NCBI GenBank assembly: GCA_016932695.1
Contig: JAFGCH010000019.1
Location: forward strand, 1 to 46,306
DNA: 46,306 nucleotides
Source of the DNA: Acidimicrobiia bacterium
GTDB taxonomy: Bacteria > Actinomycetota > Acidimicrobiia > Spongiisociales > UBA11373
Reading direction: 5' to 3'
The notes under the pieces were generated by a model. It worked only from the letters and a program-made list of their open reading frames with translations, was not told where the DNA came from and searched no databases. Position 1 is the stretch's first letter; the number at the start of each line of letters is the position of its first letter. Made by a program: the position numbers and the translations under genes. Below are positions 6,933 to 22,335 of the stretch, in pieces.

Positions 6933-8894
6933 CTATCCCAACCAGTGGCGCAGACGCTCGGTTACCGCCTCCGGGGTGAGGCCGAACTCGGCGGCGAGGC
7001 GCCCGGCCGGCGCCGAGGCCCCGAAACGGTCGATGCCCAAGTTCAGGCCGCAGACGGCGGTGAGCCGCTCCCAGCCGAAGGTGGTGCCGGCCTCCAGCGA
7101 GGCCCGAGGGAGACCTTCACCCAGCACCGACCGCCGGTAGTCGTCGTCCTGGGCGAAGAAGGCCTCCCAACACGGCAGGCTCACCACCCGGAGACTCCTC
7201 CCCTCGGCGGCCAGGAGATCGGCGGCGGCCAGGGCCAGCGACACCTCGGACCCGGTGGCGATGAGCACCGCGTCGGTGCCGTCGCGCAGCACGTAGCCGC
7301 CCCGCTGCACCCCGCCCTCCTTGCCGGCGCGATCCAGCACCGGGAGGTTCTGGCGGGAAAGGATCAGAGCGGTGGGCCCGTCGGTGCGGTTGAGGGCTAC
7401 CTCCCAAGCCTCGACGGTCTCGCCGGCGTCGGCGGGGCGCACCACCCACAAGTTCGGGATGGCCCGCAGGGAAGCCAGGTGCTCGACGGGCTGGTGGGTG
7501 GGCCCGTCCTCCCCGAGCAGCACCGAGTCGTGGGTGAACACGAAGATGCTCGGGGACTCCATGAGAGCGGCCAGGCGCAGCGCCGGGCGCAGGTAGTCGC
7601 TGAACACCAGGAAGGTGGCGCCGTATGCCCGCAGGCCGCCGTGGAGGTTCAGGCCGTTGACCATGGCCGCCATCGCATGTTCCCGCACCCCGAAGCGGAA
7701 GTTGCGCCCCTCGGGGGTGGCCGCTTGGAAGTCGGGCGAGCCGGCGATGAGCGTGTTGTTCGAGGGGGCCAGGTCGGCCGAGCCGCCCACCAGGCCGGGC
7801 AGTCGCGGGGCCAGGGCGTTGATGACCTTGCCCGAGGCGGCCCGGGTGGCGAGGGATCGGCCGACCTCGAATCCCTCGACCGGGCCTACCTCGACCCGGC
7901 CCGGCGCCCAATACTGCCGCCAGAGCGCCGCCGCCTCGGGCTCCGCGGAGAAGCGGCGGTCCCGGCTCTCCTCCCAGGCCCGCCGGGCCGTCGTGCCCCG
8001 GGCCATGACGGAACCGAAGAACGCGTAGACCTCGGGGTCCACCTCGAAGCAGCGCTCCACCGGCCATGCCATCGCCTGCTTGGCCCCGGCGATCTCCTTC
8101 TCTCCCAGGGGAGAGCCGTGGGCCTCGGCCGAACCCTGCTTGGTGGGGGCGCCGTAGGCGATGTGGGTGCGGCAGGAGAGCAGGGTGGGACGCGTCTCGT
8201 CGGCCAGGGCCTCTCCCAGCGCCGCCGCCACCGCCTCCCGGTCGTGGCCGTCGGCGGCCAGGGTCTGCCAGCCGAAGGCGGCAAAGCGGGCGGGCACGTC
8301 CTCGGTGAAGGCCAGGCCGGTCGACCCCTCGATGGAGATGCGGTTGTCGTCGTAGAGCACGATGAGACGGCCCAGCCCCAAGTGGCCGGCGAGCGACGCC
8401 GCCTCCGACGAGATCCCTTCCATCAGGCAGCCGTCGCCGGCGAAGACGTAGGTGCGATGGTCCACCAAGTCGGGCCCGAAGACGGCCCGCAGGTGGGCTT
8501 CCGCCGCCGCCAAGCCGACGGCGGTCGCCAGGCCCTGGCCCAGGGGGCCGGTGGTGGTCTCGATTCCCAGGGCGGGGTGGCGCTCGGGGTGGCCGGCGGT
8601 GGGGGACCCCCACTGGCGGAAGTTCTTCAGGTCGTCCATGGAGAGCGGGAAGCCGGCCAGGTGCAGCAGGCTGTAGAGCAGCATCGACCCGTGCCCGTTG
8701 GAGACCACGAAGCGGTCGCGGTCGGGCCAGGTGGGGTCGGTGGGGTCGACCTTCAAGAACCGGGTCCACAGCACCACGCCCAGGTCGGCCATGCCCAGCG
8801 GCATCCCCGGATGCCCCGAGTTGGCCTGTTGCACGGCGTCCATGGAAAGCGCCCGAATGGTGTCGGCGGCCAATTGCTCCACGCTGCGCCTCAT
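6933..8894 (-). CDS. tkt: Transketolase
   Basis: A full-length 653-aa transketolase, moving two-carbon ketol units in the pentose phosphate pathway with thiamine diphosphate. The N-terminal QQANSGHPGMPLGMAD motif, the TPP/Mg motif GDGCLMEGISSEAASLAGHLGLG with a downstream DDNRIS, and the mid-protein REHAMAAMVNGL with catalytic Glu are intact, as is FVFTHDSVLLGEDGPTHQPVEH. An SD-like GGAGAAGAG precedes the ATG. Upstream genes on the same strand are an M24 peptidase and the 2-oxoacid dehydrogenase operon. Downstream come corA and gapN, so lower carbon metabolism is concentrated here. Confidence 0.96.
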   Translation of the reverse strand: MRRSVEQLAADTIRALSMDAVQQANSGHPGMPLGMADLGVVLWTRFLKVDPTDPTWPDRDRFVVSNGHGSMLLYSLLHLAGFPLSMDDLKNFRQWGSPTAGHPERHPALGIETTTGPLGQGLATAVGLAAAEAHLRAVFGPDLVDHRTYVFAGDGCLMEGISSEAASLAGHLGLGRLIVLYDDNRISIEGSTGLAFTEDVPARFAAFGWQTLAADGHDREAVAAALGEALADETRPTLLSCRTHIAYGAPTKQGSAEAHGSPLGEKEIAGAKQAMAWPVERCFEVDPEVYAFFGSVMARGTTARRAWEESRDRRFSAEPEAAALWRQYWAPGRVEVGPVEGFEVGRSLATRAASGKVINALAPRLPGLVGGSADLAPSNNTLIAGSPDFQAATPEGRNFRFGVREHAMAAMVNGLNLHGGLRAYGATFLVFSDYLRPALRLAALMESPSIFVFTHDSVLLGEDGPTHQPVEHLASLRAIPNLWVVRPADAGETVEAWEVALNRTDGPTALILSRQNLPVLDRAGKEGGVQRGGYVLRDGTDAVLIATGSEVSLALAAADLLAAEGRSLRVVSLPCWEAFFAQDDDYRRSVLGEGLPRASLEAGTTFGWERLTAVCGLNLGIDRFGASAPAGRLAAEFGLTPEAVTERLRHWLG

Positions 8895-8948: not shown

Positions 8949-10043
8949 TCAGACGGCAAAGTGGATATCGCGGGGTGCCCGGTTGAAGCGCTCCGCTCCT
9001 TCCCCGGTCACCACCAGGCAGTCCTCGATCCGCACCCCGAACTCCCCCGGCAGGTAGATGCCCGGCTCCACCGAGAACGCCACACCCGGTTCCAGCAGAG
9101 CGGTGTTGCCCTCCACGATGTAGGGCGCCTCGTGCTCTTCGAGGCCGATGCCGTGCCCGGTGCGGTGCATGAAGAAGGGCCCGAACCCGGCAGCAGCGAT
9201 CACCCCGCGGGCGGCGCGATCCACCTCCTGGGCGGGCACGCCGGGCCCGGCGGCGGCTACCCCTGCCTCCTGGGCCGCCTGCACCGCGGCGAAGACCTCC
9301 CTGAAGCGAGGCGGCGGATCGCCCACGAAGAAGGTGCGGGTGATGTCGGAGTGGTAGCCCTGCAAGCGTCCGCCGAAGTCGAGCACCACGGCGTCGCCCG
9401 GGGAGATCACTCGGTCGCCCGACTCGTGGTGCGGAGAGGCCCCGTTGGGGCCGGAGGCGACGATGCTGAAGGCGGACGCCTCATGGCCCTCCTCCACCAC
9501 CATGGCGGCCACCTCCGCCGCAAGCTGTCGTTCGGTCTTCCCCGAGAAGCGGGCGCCGTCGAGGCGCGCCACCACCCGGTCCACCGCCGCCCCCGCCCGC
9601 CGCAGCAGATCGACCTCCGCCGCTTCCTTGCGCAGGCGCAACTCCCCGGTGACGGTGGAGGCGGGGGTGAAGGCCGCGTCGGGCAGCCGTTCCTGGAGAG
9701 CGAGCAGGAAGACGGCCCAGGTGGTGTCGCCCACTGCCAGGCGCCGGGCCGCCCCGCAGCGCGCCGCCACCAGGGCCACCGGGTCCTCGGTCTCCTCCCA
9801 GGCCTCCAGCACGAAGGCGTCCGGGCGAGGCGTCACCCGCGGCGCCTCCAGTGCAGGCACCACCAGCACCGCCGGGCCGTCCCCCGGCAGGACCAGCATG
9901 GTGAGACGCTCCAGGGGCATGGCCCGGTAGCCGGTGAGGTAGGGCAGGTCGGCGCCCACCGACAGCAAGAGCACGTCGATGCCGCGCTCTGCCATCAGAG
10001 CGCGGGCTCGACCCAATCGGGACGGGTAGTCGAAGGTAGTCAC
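8949..10043 (-). CDS. M24 family Xaa-Pro aminopeptidase
   Basis: A 364-aa creatinase/aminopeptidase P-like enzyme. The N-terminal creatinase domain (1-125) is followed by the pita-bread catalytic domain. Metal ligands are visible: the two Asp in VVLDFGGRLQGYHSDITR, His in HRTGHGIGLEEHE, and Glu in FSVEPGIYLPGEFGVRIED. The protein should release N-terminal residues preceding proline and act in the cytoplasm. GTG at 10043 has TAGCCT 8 nt upstream, again a leaderless arrangement, so it probably begins its own transcript despite following lipB-lipA on the same strand. Confidence 0.92.
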   Translation of the reverse strand: MTTFDYPSRLGRARALMAERGIDVLLLSVGADLPYLTGYRAMPLERLTMLVLPGDGPAVLVVPALEAPRVTPRPDAFVLEAWEETEDPVALVAARCGAARRLAVGDTTWAVFLLALQERLPDAAFTPASTVTGELRLRKEAAEVDLLRRAGAAVDRVVARLDGARFSGKTERQLAAEVAAMVVEEGHEASAFSIVASGPNGASPHHESGDRVISPGDAVVLDFGGRLQGYHSDITRTFFVGDPPPRFREVFAAVQAAQEAGVAAAGPGVPAQEVDRAARGVIAAAGFGPFFMHRTGHGIGLEEHEAPYIVEGNTALLEPGVAFSVEPGIYLPGEFGVRIEDCLVVTGEGAERFNRAPRDIHFAV

Positions 10044-10088: not shown

Positions 10089-11726
10089 CTACCCCACCGC
10101 CCGGCGAGCTTCCCCGGCGTGATAGGAGGACCGCACCAGAGGCCCCGCTTCGACCCGGGGCAAGCCCAATGCCTCCCCGTGAGCCCGGTAAGCGGCGAAC
10201 TCCTCCGGCGTCACGTAGCGGTGGATGGGACGATGCCGAGCGGTGGGCCGCAGGTACTGCCCGATGGTCACCAAGTCCACGCCGATGGCCCGCAGGTCCG
10301 CCAACGCGCCGAGGACCTCCTCCTTGGTCTCCCCCAGGCCGACCATCAGGCCGGACTTGGTGAGCCCGGCCGGGTGCATCGCTTTGGCCCGGGCGAGCAG
10401 AGCCAGCGAACGGCCGTAGTGGGCTGCGGTGCGCACCTCCCGCTGCAGGCGGACCACCGTCTCGAGGTTGTGGTTCAGGACCTCGGGCTTCTCCGCCATC
10501 ACTATCCCGAGAGCGTCCCCGTCTCCCTTGAAGTCGGGGATCAGCACTTCGACGTCGCATCCCGGCACCCGCTGCCGGATGCGACGGATGGTCTCGGCGA
10601 AGACCGCCGCCCCGCCGTCGGCCAGATCGTCCCGGTCCACCGAGGTGAGCACCGCGTAGCGCAGCCCGAGGCGGGCGACCGCTTCGGCCACCCGCGCCGG
10701 TTCGCCGGGGTCCAACGGCCCGGGCCGCCCGGTGGTCACTTCGCAGAACGAGCAGGCCCGGGTGCACACGTCTCCCAGGAGCAGGAAGGTAGCCGTGCCC
10801 GCGGCCCAGCACTCGAAGATGTTGGGGCATCCCGCTTCTTGGCAGACGGTGTGCAGGCCGAGATCGCCCACCAGGGCGCTCAGGTCCCGATAGCCCGCCC
10901 CCAGGTCGGCCCGGACCCGCATCCAGTCGGGCCGCTCGGGCTCCCCGGGCAGCCGCCCCATCACCGTGACCGGTGTCGCCCGGCGCCCTTCGGGGGAGAA
11001 GACCCCGGCGGCGACCAGGCGGTCCACCTCGAAGGAGGCCTCCTTGCGCCCGGCGCCCCCGGTGTAGGCCGCCTCCTGAACCTCAGCGATGTCGTACCCG
11101 AAGACCTCCACGAAGCGCGGGAGGAGCGCCGCCGCCATCTCCTCGAGGGACACCCGGCGCCCCGCCACTCCGCTCACCGCGGCCACCGGCCGCTCGGCCA
11201 GGCCGCAGGGCACGATGTGGCGGAAGCCGCTCAGGTCGGCGGCAACGTTGACCGCGAAGCCGTGCATGGTGACCCGGCGCCCGGTGCGCACCCCGATGGC
11301 GGCCACCTTCCCTTGGGCCGTCCACACCCCGGTGTAACCCGCCTCCGCCCAGGCTTCTACCCCCAGGTCGGACAAAGCCAGGATCAATGCCCGCTCCAGG
11401 CGACGGACGTAAGCCACCACATCGGGCTGCTCCCCCAGGTGCACGATGGGGTAGCCGACCAGCTGCCCGGGACCGTGGTAGGTGACGTCCCCGCCGCGAT
11501 CCACCCGATGCACCTCCGCCCCCAGCCGGGCCAATTCTTCGGGAGTGGTGAGCACGTGAGCGGCATCCCCCCCCGTGCCGATGGTGTAGGTCGGGGGATG
11601 CTCCAGCAGCAGGAGGTAGTCGGCCCCGGCCCGCCCCGACGCCCGGCCATCGTGGAAGGCCCGCTGCAGGTCCCAGGCCTCCCGGTAGGGCACCCGGCCC
11701 AGCCAGCGGGCCCGGAGCATCGTCAC
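10089..11726 (-). CDS. lipB-lipA: Octanoyltransferase-lipoyl synthase fusion (LipB-LipA)
   Basis: One uninterrupted 545-codon frame encodes both lipoate-assembly enzymes. Residues 1-225 are Lip[19 protein letters not shown] at 77-94, active-site Lys140 in QGKVAAIGV and Cys174 in IVPCGL. Residues about 255-545 are LipA, a radical-SAM enzyme: auxiliary-cluster cysteines at 295, 300 and 306 ([12 protein letters not shown]), SAM-cluster CxxxCxxC at 321-328 (CTRACSFC), and the C-terminal RSSYH at 532-536 whose Ser ligates the auxiliary cluster. A 30-residue linker joins them. The GTG start overlaps the E2 stop by 4 nt, so it is coupled to its likely substrate, the E2 lipoyl domain. Separate lipB and lipA genes are the norm. 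Confidence 0.93.
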
Positions 11727-13465
11727 GCCAGTTCCTGCTCCCAGTCCCGGGTCTCGAGGATCTCCTTGATCCGCCGCAGGAAGAGCACAGCCGTCGCCCC
11801 ATCGAACGCCCGGTGATCCCAGGTCAGCCCCAGGTAGCCCACGTGGTGCACCGCTATGGCGTCGGCCCCGGTGGAATCGGTCACCACCACCGGCCGCTTC
11901 ACCACCGTGTCGGTGGAGAGGATCGCCACCTCGGGCACGTTGATGATGGGTGCCGACATCATCGACCCGTACGGTCCCGGATTGGTGATGGTGAAGGTGC
12001 TCCCCGCAGCATCGTCGGGCACCAGGTTGCCGGAGCGGGCCTTCTCGGCCACGCCGCGAATGCGCCGCGCCAACTCCCGCATCCGCATGCCGTCGGCGCT
12101 GGGGATGTTCATCACGATCAGGCCGCGCTGGTCCATGTCCACCGCGATCCCCAGGTTCACCACCCCGTGGAGCACCGACTTCTTCTCCTCCAGGTAGAAG
12201 GAGGAGTTCACCACCGGGAAGGCCCCCAGGGCGTCGATGGTGGCCCGGGCGATGAAGGGCAGATAGGTCAGCGAGAAACCCTCCCGCGCCTTGAACGACT
12301 CCTGGTGACGGCGACGCACCCGCTCCACCACCTCGAAGTCGGCCTCGACCGCGGTCCAGACGTGAGCCGCCGTCCGCCGGTTGGCCAGCATGTGCTCGGC
12401 GATGCGCAGGCGCAGCCGGCTCGGGTCTTCCATCCGATCGCCGGGCCGCAACGTGATGCGGGATGGCGGAGCCTCCTCGACGGCGGGCGCCGGCGGAGCC
12501 GCCGGGGCGGGCGGAGCCGGCGGAGCCGGAGCCGGCACAGGCGCCGCCGGAGCCGGCGGGGGGGCGGGCGGCGCGATCCCGGCCTCCGGGATCAGCGTGT
12601 CCAAGCCTCGTCCCAGGCCCACCCTCTTGGGCAGCGCCGCGACGGCCTCCTCTTCTTCTTCTTCCTCCTCTTCCTCTTCCGCTTCGGGCGCCGCAGGCAG
12701 GATCTCCACCACCGGCATGGCGGGCGGTGCCGGAGCCACCGGAGCCTCGGGGGCCTCCGGCGCCGCCGGTGCGGCGGGGACGGCCACGGCAGCAGCCGCC
12801 GGCGCCGGGGCTTCACCGCGCGTTCGGGCGTCGATCAGCGCCTGCACATCCTGCCGGGTGATGCGGCCATCGCGGCCCGTCCCCCGGATCTGTGAGAGTT
12901 CGAGCCCGTGCTCGGCGGCCAGCCGCCGCACCACAGGCGAGAGGAAGCCGAGGTCAGCAGGTGCGGACGGAGCAGGCGCCTCCGCGACCGCAGCCTCCCA
13001 CACGGCGGCCTCGGGGGCCGCAGGCTCGGAAACCTCCGCGACCGCAGCCTCCGGGACGGCGGCCTCGGGAGCCGCAGGCTCGGGAACCGCAGGCTCGGGA
13101 GCCTCCGCCACCGGAGCAGCGGGCGCGACGGCTTCCGGCACCGGCACCTGCGCGGCGGCCGGCGGCGCCTCCGCCACCGGAACCATGGTGGCGGCCGGGG
13201 CTGTCGAAGTCGCGGCAGGAGCCGCCGCCGCCTCTCCGATAACGGCCAACGGGGTCCCCACCGCGACGGTCTGGCCTGCCGGGACCAGGATCTCCAGCAC
13301 GACCCCGGCGGCGGGAGAGGGCACCTCGGTGTCCACCTTGTCGGTGGAGACCTCGAGAAGCACCTCATCCTCGGCGATGGGGTCACCGGGCTGCTTGGCC
13401 CAGCGGAGGATGGTCCCCTCCGTGACCGTCTCCCCCAACTGGGGCATGCGAACCGTGACCGACAT
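11723..13465 (-). CDS. Dihydrolipoamide acyltransferase (E2) of a 2-oxoacid dehydrogenase complex
   Basis: A 580-aa E2. The lipoyl domain occupies 1-80, with the lipoylated Lys43 in [10 protein letters not shown] long Ala/Pro/Glu/Val linker containing a duplicated 18-residue unit follows. The peripheral subunit-binding domain is [20 protein letters not shown] with [12 protein letters not shown] second linker has an acidic run of Glu and an odd [16 protein letters not shown] segment at about 277-292. The catalytic domain ends with the HxxxDG-type motif [14 protein letters not shown]. The ATG at 13465 is chosen because the lipoyl domain begins there and AGGAGG stands in front. The frame is open further upstream but without similarity. 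Acyl specificity is not predictable. Confidence 0.92.
12981..13088 (-). repeat. Two tandem 54-bp repeats in the E2 linker
   Basis: Units at 12981-13034 and 13035-13088 differ at only about five positions and encode an 18-residue Ala/Glu/Pro/Val unit. A third degenerate partial copy follows. They lengthen the flexible arm that swings the lipoyl domain. Confidence 0.85.
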
Positions 13466-13476
13466 GAGCGCTCCTC

Positions 13477-15405
13477 CTAGGTATTTGCCAACGCAAGGAC
13501 TACGGCGAGGATGTCCGCCGGCCGGGGCCCGGCGGCCTCCTCCCGGGACGAACCGAGGGTCCCCCAAACGGGCCCCACCCGCCGTATCGGGGCATCCAAA
13601 TGCCAGAAGCCATCCTGGGCGATCCGGGCGGCGACCTCGGCCCCCACTTCGCCGAGGGCACAGCCGTCGGAGGCCACTACCAGGCGGCCGGTGCGGGCCA
13701 CCGACTCCTGCACCATCTCCCCATCGATGGGATCGAGGCACTGCAGGTCCACCACCTCCACGCCGATCCCTGAGGCCGCCGCTTCGTCGGCGGCTTCCAG
13801 GGCGGCAGCCACGGCCGTTCCCCAGGCCACGACCGTCACGTCGGCGCCTTCCCGGGCAAGCCGCGCCCGGCCCGGGGCGACCGCCGGCGCCCCGTCCTGC
13901 CCGGAGGCGGCGCCGTAGAACCCCAGCGGCTCGAGCAGCACTACCGGCCCCGGGTCCCGCACCGCGGCCGCCAGCAGGTCCGGGGCGGCGCCCGGGGTGC
14001 CGGGCATCAGCACCTTGAGGCCCAGGCCGGTAGCCGCGCCGGGGCCGGAATCCCCGCCCCGGTCACAGGGCACGCGCAGCACCAGGGGAAGCGGGTGATC
14101 GCCGGAGCCGGCATGCCCCGCGAGCAGACCGAGTGAGGCGTGGAGATGACGCCCGGCCACCTCCGCCACCGGGCGCAGGCCGGCGAGGGCCGCCCCCAAG
14201 GCCGCTCCCACCAGGCCGGGCCCGGCGCTGGGGAAGTCGATGACCCGCCGGGGCCCGTAGCGTTCCAGTAGCCCTCGAGTGGCCTCGTACGGCCCGCCCA
14301 GGCGCCCGACGTCGGGCCCGAGGACCACCACCGCCTCATCGCGCGCCATCTCCTCGTCCAGGACCCCGGCCAGCGCCTCCGCCACGGTGACCTGGGGCCG
14401 GGGAAGACGACCGGGCCGTGCTTCTCCCTCCGGCCCAACGGGGCCAGCAGCCTCCGGGGGACCGGCGTCGGCCTGCCGGCGGGCCCAGTCCAGCGTCTGG
14501 GTGATCCGGGACCGCACCCGATCCTGCAGGTAGGAGCGGCGGGTCTCGTCGAGCAGGCCCCGGCTGCCCAGGTACTCCTCGTAGCGGGGCAGGGGGTCGC
14601 GGGCCAGCCAGGAGCGACGCGCCTCCGCATCGACGTAGACGGCGGGGTCGCCGACGTGATGGCCGTGGTGGCGGAAGGTCACCGCCTCGACCAGGCTGGG
14701 CCCCTCCCCGGCACGGGCCCGCTCCACCGCCTCACGGGCGGCGGCGTATACCTCCAGCACGTCGTTGCCGTCGACCACGATGCCGGGGATGCCGTACCCG
14801 TCGGCCCGGTGCGCGGTGTAGGCCAGGGGCGAGACGCTCTCGTTGGGCAGCGAGTAGGCGTACTGGTTGTTCTCCACCGCGAAGACCACCGGGAGCCGGT
14901 GGACGGCGGCGGCGTTCACCGCTTCGTGCCACACCCCGCAAGCCGTCGCCCCTTCCCCGCAGAGCGCCAGGGCGACCCGGGCTTCTGCCCGGCAGTGGAA
15001 GGCCAAGGCGGCTCCCACGGCCACCGCCACCCCATCGACGCTGGCGGCGGAGACCCCGATGATGCCCTTGCCCGGAGCGGGGGCGCCGAAGGGGCGCAGG
15101 CCCCGCGACGGCCCGGCTGCCTTCCCGAGGAGATCGAGGAGGGCTTCTTCCAGCGTGACCCCCCGCACCAGGGTCGCCAGCAGGTCGCGATGCCCCCCGG
15201 AGTAGAAATCGCCGGGGTCCAGCGCCGACGCGAAGCCCACCTGAGAGGCCTCCTGACCCGATCCCGGATGGCGGAAGCCACCCCGCCCGGCCTCATCCTC
15301 CTCGAGCAAGGCCGACTCGAGGAAGCGGCCGGTGAGCATCCATTCGTAGAGAGCGAGCAGTTGCGCCTCGCTCAACTCCACGGCGGCACCGCGCATCTCG
15401 CTCAA
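13477..15405 (-). CDS. Fused E1 alpha-beta subunit of a 2-oxoacid dehydrogenase complex, divergent
   Basis: A 642-aa fusion. Residues 1-300 match E1 alpha, with TPP/Mg motif GEGATACGVWHEAVN (150-164), NN at 179-180 and a GHHVGDPAVY loop. Residues about 338-642 match E1 beta. The beta half looks degenerate against Bacillus and human PDH beta. GEDVG is GPDVG (363-367). The catalytic Glu of D-T-P-x-x-E is Gly395 (DFPSAG). The conserved HS-D/Q-S loop before PGLKVV is deleted near 453-461. The alpha half also lacks the usual GxMH/MPEH histidine. TTG at 15405 is the start because GAGGAGG lies 5 nt upstream. Spacing to E2 is 11 nt. Oxoacid specificity and activity are both open. Confidence 0.85.
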   Translation of the reverse strand: MSEMRGAAVELSEAQLLALYEWMLTGRFLESALLEEDEAGRGGFRHPGSGQEASQVGFASALDPGDFYSGGHRDLLATLVRGVTLEEALLDLLGKAAGPSRGLRPFGAPAPGKGIIGVSAASVDGVAVAVGAALAFHCRAEARVALALCGEGATACGVWHEAVNAAAVHRLPVVFAVENNQYAYSLPNESVSPLAYTAHRADGYGIPGIVVDGNDVLEVYAAAREAVERARAGEGPSLVEAVTFRHHGHHVGDPAVYVDAEARRSWLARDPLPRYEEYLGSRGLLDETRRSYLQDRVRSRITQTLDWARRQADAGPPEAAGPVGPEGEARPGRLPRPQVTVAEALAGVLDEEMARDEAVVVLGPDVGRLGGPYEATRGLLERYGPRRVIDFPSAGPGLVGAALGAALAGLRPVAEVAGRHLHASLGLLAGHAGSGDHPLPLVLRVPCDRGGDSGPGAATGLGLKVLMPGTPGAAPDLLAAAVRDPGPVVLLEPLGFYGAASGQDGAPAVAPGRARLAREGADVTVVAWGTAVAAALEAADEAAASGIGVEVVDLQCLDPIDGEMVQESVARTGRLVVASDGCALGEVGAEVAARIAQDGFWHLDAPIRRVGPVWGTLGSSREEAAGPRPADILAVVLALANT

Positions 15406-15415
15406 CCCGTCCTCC

Positions 15416-16786
15416 TCAATGCAGGCTGCGCCCGGCGGAGGAGAGCAGGGTCTCCCCCACCACCTCGGCCAGGGTGGGATGGCCGTGGATGAAGGCCGCC
15501 GCCTCGGCGGGCAGCGCCTCCCAGCCCACCGCCAGGACCATCTCGTGGATCAACTCCCCGGCGGCGGGCCCGGCGATGGTGGCTCCCAGGATGGGCCCGC
15601 CCGCCTCGGTGACGATCTTCACCAGGCCGCGGTTCTCGCCGCGGATCATCGCCCGGGCCGCGGCCTGGAACCCATGGCTGTGGGTGACCACCTGGTAGCC
15701 GGCCTCCCGGGCCCGCTCCTCGGTGAGCCCGACCGCGGCCACCTCGGGCCGGGTGTAGACGATGCCCGGCACCGCCCGGTAGTCCACCGGGGCCGGCCGG
15801 CCCGTGGCGATGTGAGTGATGGCGGCGATGCCCTCGGCAAACCCGGCGTGGGCCAGCTGCGGGGTGCCGGCCACGATGTCGCCGACGGCGTAGACGCCGG
15901 GCTCGGCAGTCTGCTGAGTGAGGGAGTCCACCTCGACGAACCCGCGCTCTAGCTCGACCCGGGTCCCCTCGAGGTCGATACCGGCAGTCACCGGGGAGCG
16001 GCCCACGGCCACCAGGACCACATCCACCGCAGCCTCGCCGCCGTCGTAGGGCACCGTCACCCCCTCACCGGACAGCCGCGCCGGGCCCACCGCAGTCCCG
16101 GCATGGACCTCCACCTTGCGAGCGGACAGCTCCCGGTGCAGCACCCTGGCGGCCTCGGGTTCCATGCCGGGGAGGATCTGGGGCAGCACCTCGAACAGGT
16201 ACACCCTGCTACCCAGGTCGGAGAGGAAGGAGGCGAACTCGCAGCCGATGGCCCCGGCCCCGATGATGGCCACCCTCTCCGGGCGCTCCGTCCACTCCAG
16301 GGCGTGGTCGGAGGAGACGATGCGCTGCCCGTCGATCTCATAGCCGGGGATGCTCCGGGGCACGGACCCCGTGGCGATGATGACGGCACGGCCCTCGAGG
16401 CGTCGCTCCCCCTCGCTCGTCGCCACCCGCACTCCGCCGGGAAGGTCGAGCCGCCCCACTCCGGCGACCACCTCGACGCCCCGCTGGCGCAAGAGGCCGC
16501 CCAGGCCGCGATGCAGCCGGCCGACGATTGCGCCCTTGCGCTCCCGGGCACGGCTCCAGTCGAGGCCGGGAGGGCCCGCCACCACCCCGAACTCCCCCGC
16601 TGCCCCCACTGTGGCGAACACCTCCGCGGTCTCCAGCCACACCTTGGTAGGGACGCACCCGCGATGCAGGCAGGCACCCCCCACCAGGTCCTTCTCGACC
16701 ATGGCAACGGAGAGCCCGTAGTTGTGGGCGTACAGGGCGGCGGCATAGCCGCCCGGGCCCCCACCGATGATGACCGCGTCGTGCAA
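15416..16786 (-). CDS. lpdA: Dihydrolipoamide dehydrogenase (E3)
   Basis: A 456-aa flavoprotein that reoxidises the dihydrolipoyl arm of E2 and passes electrons to NAD. It has the FAD-binding GGGPGGYAAALYAHNYG start, redox-active CLHRGCVPTK at about 40, a second Rossmann GAGAIGCEFASFLSDLG for NAD, YAVGDIV for FAD, and the catalytic HGHPTLAEVVGE near the C-terminus. TTG at 16786 gives the usual family start (HDAVIIGGGPGG) with GGGGG upstream. A TTG 15 nt further out is the alternative. It heads the operon lpdA-E1-E2-lipB-lipA, with 10 nt to the E1 start. A TAACCT hexamer at 16819-16814 could be its -10. Confidence 0.95.
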   Translation of the reverse strand: MHDAVIIGGGPGGYAAALYAHNYGLSVAMVEKDLVGGACLHRGCVPTKVWLETAEVFATVGAAGEFGVVAGPPGLDWSRARERKGAIVGRLHRGLGGLLRQRGVEVVAGVGRLDLPGGVRVATSEGERRLEGRAVIIATGSVPRSIPGYEIDGQRIVSSDHALEWTERPERVAIIGAGAIGCEFASFLSDLGSRVYLFEVLPQILPGMEPEAARVLHRELSARKVEVHAGTAVGPARLSGEGVTVPYDGGEAAVDVVLVAVGRSPVTAGIDLEGTRVELERGFVEVDSLTQQTAEPGVYAVGDIVAGTPQLAHAGFAEGIAAITHIATGRPAPVDYRAVPGIVYTRPEVAAVGLTEERAREAGYQVVTHSHGFQAAARAMIRGENRGLVKIVTEAGGPILGATIAGPAAGELIHEMVLAVGWEALPAEAAAFIHGHPTLAEVVGETLLSSAGRSLH

Positions 16787-16840
16787 GGAACCCCCAAGCA
16801 ATCGCCTGGTTCGAGGTTAGCCGCCGGTTGGCCCCACACC

Positions 16841-20294: not shown

Positions 20295-20852
20295 ATGGTC
20301 GACACCATCACCACCCTGGCCGGGATCGCCACCCTGGCGGTGGCCGCGCTCATCGCGGGCATCGTCGTGCTCTGGGCCGCCGCCCGCTTCTCCCCCGGTG
20401 CGGCCGCCGCCCAGGGCCGCCTGATCGACTACCTGGGCGGCCAATCGCTGTGGCTGGCCTGGCTGGTGGCGGTGGCCGCCACCGTCGGGAGCCTCTACTA
20501 CTCCGACGTCGTCGGTTTCGAGCCGTGCTCGCTGTGCTGGTATCAGCGCATCGCCCTGTATCCCCTCGTGGTCATCCTGCCGGTGGGGGCGGTCACCAAG
20601 GACCGGTTCCTGGCCCGCTATGCCCTGCCCCTGACGGCCGCCGGGGCGGTGCTCGCCGTCTACAACTACCTGGTCGAACTGTTCCCCGGCATCGAAGTGG
20701 CCTGTTCCACCACAGTGTCGTGCAGCACCGCTTACGTCGAAGCCTTCGGCTGGCTGACCCTGCCGCTCATGTCGGCGGTCGCCTTCGCCGCCATCACCGC
20801 CGGGATCCTCTACGACCGGGCGGCCTACCGCCGGGCGGAAGCTCTCGATTAG
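20295..20852 (+). CDS. dsbB: Disulfide bond formation protein B (DsbB/BdbC-like)
   Basis: A 185-aa membrane protein with about five hydrophobic segments. The first is an extra N-terminal helix, then the four-helix DsbB core. The first redox pair is in the signature FEPCSLCWYQR and the second in ACSTTVSCS (CX5C). Both external cysteine pairs needed to pass electrons from a thiol oxidase to quinone are present. A TAGGGT hexamer at 20261-20266 and AGGAG at 20278-20282 precede the ATG. It is first in a run with two TlpA-like genes, its plausible redox partners. Confidence 0.92.
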   Translation: MVDTITTLAGIATLAVAALIAGIVVLWAAARFSPGAAAAQGRLIDYLGGQSLWLAWLVAVAATVGSLYYSDVVGFEPCSLCWYQRIALYPLVVILPVGAVTKDRFLARYALPLTAAGAVLAVYNYLVELFPGIEVACSTTVSCSTAYVEAFGWLTLPLMSAVAFAAITAGILYDRAAYRRAEALD

Positions 20853-20897
20853 CGGCCCCGCCCCGCATATGCTGCCCCGCTCAGGACAGGAGTGACA

Positions 20898-21572
20898 GTG
20901 AGCCCAACGACCACCGCCAAGCGCCCGGCCCGGCCGTCCCCCGCCGCCGGCCGCAAACCCGCCGCCCCGACTCCCCGGCGCCTGCCCATTGCGCTGATCG
21001 CCGGAGTGGTCCTCGCCGTCGGCCTGGTGGCCGTCATCGTGGTGACCATGGGGTCGGCCTCCGAGGCGGCGGAGGTCGGCTCGCCGATGGTCGCCGGGGA
21101 GGCGCTGCCTCCCTTCGAGAGCATCGAGAGCGAAACCGGCCTGGGCCTCACGATCCCCGAGGTCACCGGCGCCGACTTCGCCGGCACGCCGGTGAGCATC
21201 ACCCGCGACGGCCGGCCGAAGGTGATCGTGTTCTTCGCCCACTGGTGCAGCGTCTGCCGCCAGGAGATGCCGCTGATCGCCGACTGGCTCCCCGGGGCCG
21301 GCCTCCCCGCGGGGCTGGATCTCGTCGCGGTGAGCACCGGGGTCAACGAGAACCAGGTCAACTACCCGCCCTCGGAGTGGTTCGCCGCCGAGGGATGGCC
21401 GGCGCCCCTCATCATGGACGACGAAGCGGGCAGCGTCGCCCGCGCCTTCGGGCTGACCGCCTACCCCTACTTCGTCTTCGTAGATGCCGAAGGCAAGGTG
21501 GCTCTCCGCCTGATCGGCGGCCTATCGACCGCCACCCTCCAGTCGGTCATCGCCGAACTGGCCCGGACCTGA
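20898..21572 (+). CDS. Membrane-anchored TlpA-like thioredoxin, CSVC type
   Basis: A 224-aa protein with an N-terminal basic stretch, one membrane anchor (ALIAGVVLAVGLVAVIVVTM) and an external thioredoxin-fold domain. The redox motif is AHWCSVCRQEMP, and the presumed cis-proline lies in TAYPYFVFVD. GTG at 20898 is chosen because AGGAG ends 5 nt before it, whereas the GTG two codons earlier overlaps that site. It is similar along its whole domain to the next gene (GADFAG...DGRPK...AHWC), so the pair are tandem duplicates. Likely role: thiol-disulfide exchange outside the membrane with DsbB upstream. Confidence 0.88.
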   Translation: MSPTTTAKRPARPSPAAGRKPAAPTPRRLPIALIAGVVLAVGLVAVIVVTMGSASEAAEVGSPMVAGEALPPFESIESETGLGLTIPEVTGADFAGTPVSITRDGRPKVIVFFAHWCSVCRQEMPLIADWLPGAGLPAGLDLVAVSTGVNENQVNYPPSEWFAAEGWPAPLIMDDEAGSVARAFGLTAYPYFVFVDAEGKVALRLIGGLSTATLQSVIAELART

Positions 21573-21573
21573 C

Positions 21574-22335
21574 GTGGACCCGACCGCCTCTTCGGAAGGG
21601 GCCGCAGATACCCTGCGGGTGGGCCTGAAGGCACCCCGTGGGGGCTCGACCCCGGGGGCGCGTCTGCCGTCCTGGGTGGTCCCCACCCTGGTCCTGGCCC
21701 TGGTGGGCGGCTTCGGCGGCGGCCTGGCCGTAGGACTGCTGGTGGCCGGTGCCGGCGACTCCGGCCAGGCGGCGACCACCACCACGAGGCCGGCGACCGC
21801 TACCACCGTCCCCTGGGATCCCGCCGAGGCCTATGGAGCGACGGTGGCAGTCGACGGCTCCCCCCTGCCCATGCTGGGGAGCGCCGAGACCGACACCGCC
21901 ATCGGCCGGCCCCTCCCCGTCATCACCGGCACCGACTTCGCCGGCCGCCGGCTCACCATCGCCACCGACGGCCGGCCCAAGCTGATCGTGGCCCTGGCCC
22001 ACTGGTGCCCCTACTGCAATGCCGAGGTGCCCATCCTCCAGGAGTGGTACGGGGACGGCCCCGAGGGAATCGACCTCATCACCCTCAGCGTGTACACCGA
22101 CCCGAACCGGTCCAACTTCCCGCCCGCGGCCTGGCTGGCGGAGGCCCGGTGGGACATGCCGCTGCTCGCCGACGACTCGCAACGCACCCTGGTGACCACG
22201 CTGGGGATCCCGGCGGTCCCCTTCTGGCTACTCGTCTCCGCCGACGGCACGGTGCTGCAGCGCCTCACCGGCCAACTCCCCGCCGAGTCCCTCGACGGAA
22301 TTGCCGAGATGCTCCGCGGCACCGCCACCTCCTAG
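21574..22335 (+). CDS. Membrane-anchored TlpA-like thioredoxin, CPYC type
   Basis: A 253-aa paralogue of the preceding gene. An N-terminal cytoplasmic segment is followed by a membrane helix (VVPTLVLALVGGFGGGLAVG), a Thr-rich spacer and a thioredoxin-fold domain. The redox motif is AHWCPYCNAEVP, and the putative cis-proline is preceded by Val (GIPAVPFWL), as in DsbA-type oxidants. The GTG start lies 1 nt after the previous stop. The CPYC dipeptide differs from its neighbour's CSVC, suggesting a different redox potential. It is probably the more oxidising partner of DsbB, but this is inference. Confidence 0.87.
   Translation: MDPTASSEGAADTLRVGLKAPRGGSTPGARLPSWVVPTLVLALVGGFGGGLAVGLLVAGAGDSGQAATTTTRPATATTVPWDPAEAYGATVAVDGSPLPMLGSAETDTAIGRPLPVITGTDFAGRRLTIATDGRPKLIVALAHWCPYCNAEVPILQEWYGDGPEGIDLITLSVYTDPNRSNFPPAAWLAEARWDMPLLADDSQRTLVTTLGIPAVPFWLLVSADGTVLQRLTGQLPAESLDGIAEMLRGTATS

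Follow-up and report, generated by a model that had tools for sequence, protein, structure and literature searches.

A fused E1 protein without its catalytic residues is kept in an E2/E3 operon of uncultured Acidimicrobiia, probably as a pseudo-E1

Here, we describe a fused E1 alpha-beta protein, hereafter E1x, which is encoded between the genes for E3 and E2 in a 46,306-nucleotide stretch of acidimicrobial DNA (the window) and has lost its catalytic residues. Judging from sequence comparison, E1x is probably a catalytically dead pseudo-E1 that either keeps a non-catalytic role or is slowly eroding toward loss, a reading to which we give a probability of roughly two in three. Classical Glu-dependent E1 chemistry in this protein appears very unlikely.

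Results

The E1x gene, defined by its open reading frame, Pfam matches, and alignment, occupies 13477..15405 on the minus strand, and the ORF listing gives a product of 642 aa with a TTG start. Read on the plus strand, the same interval contains stops, which places the gene on the minus strand, and the coding score also prefers the minus-strand frame. Pfam detected the domains expected of an alpha-beta-type E1, namely E1_dh, Transket_pyr, and Transketolase_C. Alignments delimit an alpha half (residues 1–310; 14476..15405, minus strand), alignments and a structure model delimit a beta pyrimidine (Pyr) domain (residues 338–505; 13891..14394, minus strand), and Pfam, alignment, and models delimit a beta C-terminal domain (residues 506–642; 13480..13890, minus strand). 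The E1 fold is preserved in the structure model (pLDDT 82.7, pTM 0.85; canonical control, pLDDT 87.6, pTM 0.89), with low-confidence stretches at residues 183–192, 319–335, 450–459, and 615–624. Its best solved structural relatives are the BCKDH E1s of T. thermophilus and human, with Z scores of about 41 to 38.

Catalytic positions were read from two alignments, the first comprising fifteen order-level orthologues and five paralogues and the second comprising 44 fused E1s. The canonical DTPIAE(S) has become DFPSAG in E1x, where Gly395 (codon at 14221..14223, minus strand) occupies the position of the N1′-activating glutamate; GEDVG has become GPDVG, with Pro364 at the Glu position; and QYTDF has become AGRH, with DF gone. 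The segment GPFHSISPE of canonical E1s falls inside a net 8-residue deletion in a loop at about residues 450–459, where pLDDT is below 50, and the remnant of the HS-x-S histidine loop lies at 14020..14052 on the minus strand; the beta′ His of an active E1 has gone with this loop. In the alpha half, the NSHF histidine is missing along with a short deletion, and the SPL wedge is replaced by A-A-S. Residues retained in E1x include Arg73 (HRD), Glu151 (GEGA), Asn179/180, and His249. The metal/diphosphate motif of active E1s (GDG or GEG followed by NN) is present via Glu151 and Asn179/180, GEGA being normal for E1s of this type and no deviation. The original prediction had named Gly395, GPDVG, the loop deletion, and the missing alpha-half histidine beside a kept GEGA...NN, and the alignments with canonical orthologues bear out all of these, with correct coordinates and the gene on the minus strand. 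Its doubt about classical chemistry, combined with a kept pyrophosphate side of the TPP site, also appears justified, since the Arg, Glu, and Asn-Asn are retained and the activating Glu is lost.

Catalysis of aminopyrimidine tautomerization is ascribed to the Glu near N1′ (PMC6270654). Neither the alignments nor the other reading frames yielded a substitute for it nearby in the E1x sequence, so that E1x lacks the Glu that hydrogen-bonds N1′ of the aminopyrimidine in an active E1, and its supply from another position, which would have overturned the original prediction, did not emerge. Glu415 belongs to the P-x-x-E-L strand and is present throughout the family. A hidden frameshift or reading error was rejected, as the other frames contain nothing canonical, and so was an assembly artefact, as the same losses recur in an independent congeneric MAG. 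The stops or frameshifts of a pseudogene were not found in E1x, which instead combines a homologous fold with missing catalytic residues in the alignments and structure model, as expected of a pseudoenzyme.

Changes extend to other parts of the model. The helix following DF is shorter in E1x (residues 418–432) than in the canonical control (residues 422–443), and the loop at 615–624, ahead of the last helix of the C-terminal domain, is altered. With the C-terminal loop and the short helix altered near the presumed E2 contact, the model weakens the case for a role of E1x at E2.

The minus-strand gene order is E3, E1x, E2, LipB–LipA fusion, M24-type gene, and transketolase. E3, a dihydrolipoyl dehydrogenase (15416..16801, minus strand), scores over the TIGR01350 cut-off with CxxxxC and HGHPT..E intact. 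E2, a dihydrolipoyl acyltransferase (11723..13471, minus strand), has its lipoyl domain, E3/E1-binding domain, and DHRxFDG motif intact and keeps the lipoyl lysine; in its linker, about twelve glutamates follow one another and long Ala/Pro stretches occur. The fused octanoyltransferase and lipoyl synthase, LipB–LipA (10089..11726, minus strand), has Pfam and NCBIfam matches with its motifs kept. This fusion is present in 18 of the 20 order-level genomes searched, and while NCBIfam holds a model for an LplA–LipA fusion, the over-cut-off matches here come from the individual LipA and LipB models. The conserved order continues with an ORF at 8949..10043 (minus strand), which we take to belong to the M24 peptidase family, followed by a transketolase (6933..8894, minus strand; Transket_pyr match) that is syntenic in relatives and is not part of the complex. 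Further along, 20295–22335 encodes a DsbB-like membrane protein and then two thioredoxin-fold-like proteins, one of them fast-evolving (dN/dS 0.59 vs the congener).

The relatives available for comparison are uncultured Acidimicrobiia (Actinomycetota) MAGs, and only two genomes are known for the E1x genus, the present one (G000) and its congener G001. E1x of G001 (L110) is 66% identical, is encoded in the same operon, and likewise lacks the beta Glu, beta′ His, DF, and alpha His. The HS loop region is deleted in G000 and present with unrelated sequence in G001. Being common to both species, the losses of residues for thiamine diphosphate activation and acyl transfer predate the G000/G001 split. 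In a third family member from another genus, G005 (L119), E1x shows parallel losses, with Asp for Glu, Ser for His, DD for DF, and Leu for the alpha His; this partly degenerate E1x corresponds to L103 8135–10060. All three degenerate proteins keep Arg73, Glu151, Asn179/180, and His249. Twelve other E1x orthologues of the order are canonical, and the remaining full-length-aligning proteins among the 44 fused E1s keep both Glu and His, a count that leaves out rows L172, L174, L177, and L178, in which the tblastn bounds or the frame are disturbed. The same operon occurs without an E1 in another genus of the family, g7 (G007 and G011); G034 retains the E3–E2–LipBA order with no E1 in between; and G035 and G041 carry their E1x orthologue elsewhere in the genome. 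Trees bearing on a possible single origin of the degeneration in g1, G005, and g7 give a poorly supported branching order: an E1 tree groups G005 with g1 (62), a six-gene tree places g1, G005, and g7 together (61), and a two-gene tree disagrees. Replacement of a pyruvate E1 by pyruvate:ferredoxin oxidoreductase was rejected, as the occurrence of NifJ does not track the state of E1x; NifJ is absent in G001, where E1x is degenerate, and present in several canonical genomes. Nor did the occurrence of NifJ hint at the substrate of the canonical orthologues. G005 also has a canonical-type fused E1 paralogue (C450:3711–5591), read with one in-frame TGA.

We then counted the E1 and E2 genes of this genome, a draft that is 95.5% complete and in which a second E2 could sit in a gap. 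The E2 catalytic domain (PF00198) has a single match genome-wide, the E2 of the E1x operon. A fused canonical E1 with its catalytic residues present is encoded on C142 after a leucine/phenylalanine-dehydrogenase-type gene and is probably a branched-chain 2-oxoacid E1. A split E1 pair with canonical catalytic residues lies at contig ends, with alpha on C69 and beta on C38. E1x shares about 39–42% identity with its paralogues. The split pair (L042 1–16385, L043 3829–7589) adjoins catabolic-cluster-like genes, among them isocitrate/tartrate-dehydrogenase-like, aldehyde dehydrogenase, xanthine-dehydrogenase-like subunit, and split transketolase genes; an E2 belonging to the pair was not seen. From these gene counts, the operon E2 most likely serves E1s encoded elsewhere. 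Because a single E2 coexists with canonical E1s elsewhere, and because operons lacking an E1 occur in g7 and G034, the operon would remain intact whether or not its resident E1 works. The original prediction had read the complete operon as a sign of altered chemistry. With one detected E2, two canonical E1s elsewhere, and E1-less operons in relatives, that step does not hold: sharing of E2 and E3 can explain the intact operon, whose integrity alone thus implies no new chemistry.

Selection on E1x was assessed by NG86 between G000 and G001. For the whole protein, dN/dS is 0.30 (bootstrap 0.25–0.37), to be read by comparison and by sign (<1), because synonymous sites approach saturation (NG86 dS 0.79, ML higher). 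By domain, the values are 0.21 for the alpha half, 0.40 for the Pyr domain, and 0.33 for the C-terminal domain, all below 1. Between the same two genomes, dN/dS is 0.12 across the active fused E1, 0.09 in its Pyr domain, 0.17 in E3, and 0.18 in LipBA. In the Pyr domain, dN is 0.34 for E1x vs 0.04 for the active fused E1, and the evolutionary rate of the E1x beta half reaches about nine times that of the active paralogue. Relative to neighboring genes, the E1x branches run at about 3×, stem and tips included, and those of canonical orthologues at about 1×. These comparisons indicate that the constraint on E1x is real yet relaxed, most of all in the beta half. Purifying selection after catalytic loss, with the frame open in both species, is the pattern expected of a pseudoenzyme; it argues against a simple relic and is silent on what E1x does.

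The main rival reading is decay, in which the gene is being lost: with no further need for catalysis, the protein erodes toward the clean absence found in g7, where 69–82 bp separate E3 from E2. We regard this explanation as unlikely but worth serious consideration. About half of the canonical-invariant sites of the Pyr domain are lost in E1x, and among the sites lost in both species the residue is the same in 13 of 40 and different in most; the rates are raised on stem and tips alike, not in one burst. However, neither species has a stop or a hidden frameshift despite near-saturated synonymous sites, while simulated neutral evolution (0.4 changes per site) gives a mean of 3–7 stops per gene, which makes two open frames at this distance unlikely without selection. 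Moreover, dN/dS stays below 1 in every domain, and the alpha half is about as constrained as LipBA. The original prediction had allowed that it would fail if a second canonical E1 existed and this one were a clear pseudogene in relatives; other canonical E1s do exist, but in both species of the genus the E1x frame has stayed open under purifying selection.

Discussion

We propose that E1x is a pseudo-E1 that no longer has to be catalytic. The E2/E3 core would now work with E1s from elsewhere, namely the fused E1 on C142 and the split alpha/beta pair, and this sharing would have relieved the resident E1 of its catalytic task. The E1x protein is probably still made and keeps some non-catalytic role, as an assembly partner, oligomer, or regulator, because constraint on its reading frame persists and is strongest in the alpha half. 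Slow erosion toward a g7-like absence would be an alternative outcome of the same process.

A further explanation, which we consider improbable, is that E1x still binds thiamine diphosphate and works by another mechanism or on another substrate. It would fit the intact operon and the retained Arg73, Glu151, Asn179/180, and His249, and it has a precedent in glyoxylate carboligase, which shows that a thiamine enzyme can function without this Glu (PMC3534367). Against it, the beta′ His loop, DF, alpha His, and alpha SPL wedge have gone as well as the Glu, the would-be new site lies in a fast-evolving part and differs in length and sequence between the two species, and the integrity of the operon is otherwise explained. 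A more specific form of this idea, in which E1x is the thiamine-diphosphate component of a lipoamide-linked complex and handles a substrate outside the usual 2-oxoacids by a mechanism involving neither the Glu nor the beta′ His, seems more doubtful still. Finally, a working hybrid site formed by the E1x alpha half and the intact beta domain of another E1 is highly improbable: the alpha half is better conserved than the beta half and the genome encodes a canonical split E1 beta, but the paralogues are only about 39–42% identical, the alpha half itself lacks the NSHF His and the SPL wedge, and there is no sign of co-assembly.

Across the family, one conserved operon holds a natural series of E1 states: canonical, partly eroded (G005), fully eroded but kept (the E1x genus), and absent (g7). 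Such a series would allow the fate of an E1 to be traced once the E2 core is shared. It also cautions that finding E1, E2, E3, and lipoylation genes together in an operon is no proof that this E1 forms a working complex.

Several known systems resemble E1x in part. With the alpha2beta2-type 2-oxoacid dehydrogenase E1s (PDH or branched-chain) in their fused form, E1x shares the domain order, the fold, the operon with E2 and E3, and the alpha metal/diphosphate motif; unlike them, it has neither the activating Glu nor the alpha His, and the beta′ His loop and DF are missing too. A limited literature search found no inactive alpha-beta E1 retained in its own operon. Inactive E2 paralogues are already known in these complexes: E3BP of PDH complexes (PMC10156792) has lost catalysis and is nevertheless kept, as is E1x, although E3BP is of E2 origin and is known to act as a tether, whereas E1x derives from E1. 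Glyoxylate carboligase (PMC3534367), a member of the thiamine-diphosphate family, resembles E1x in having no canonical Glu. However, it carries Val at that position with the rest of its site working, whereas E1x has lost several catalytic elements, and the remainder of its active site is neither complete nor conserved between species, as a carboligase-like enzyme would require. The closest parallel for the proposed sharing is the actinobacterial PDH–ODH hybrid (PMC10581250), in which two E1s draw on a single lipoylated E2, a sharing that gene counts suggest here as well; the hybrid E1s, AceE and OdhA, are both active, whereas the E1s of the present genome are of the alpha-beta type.
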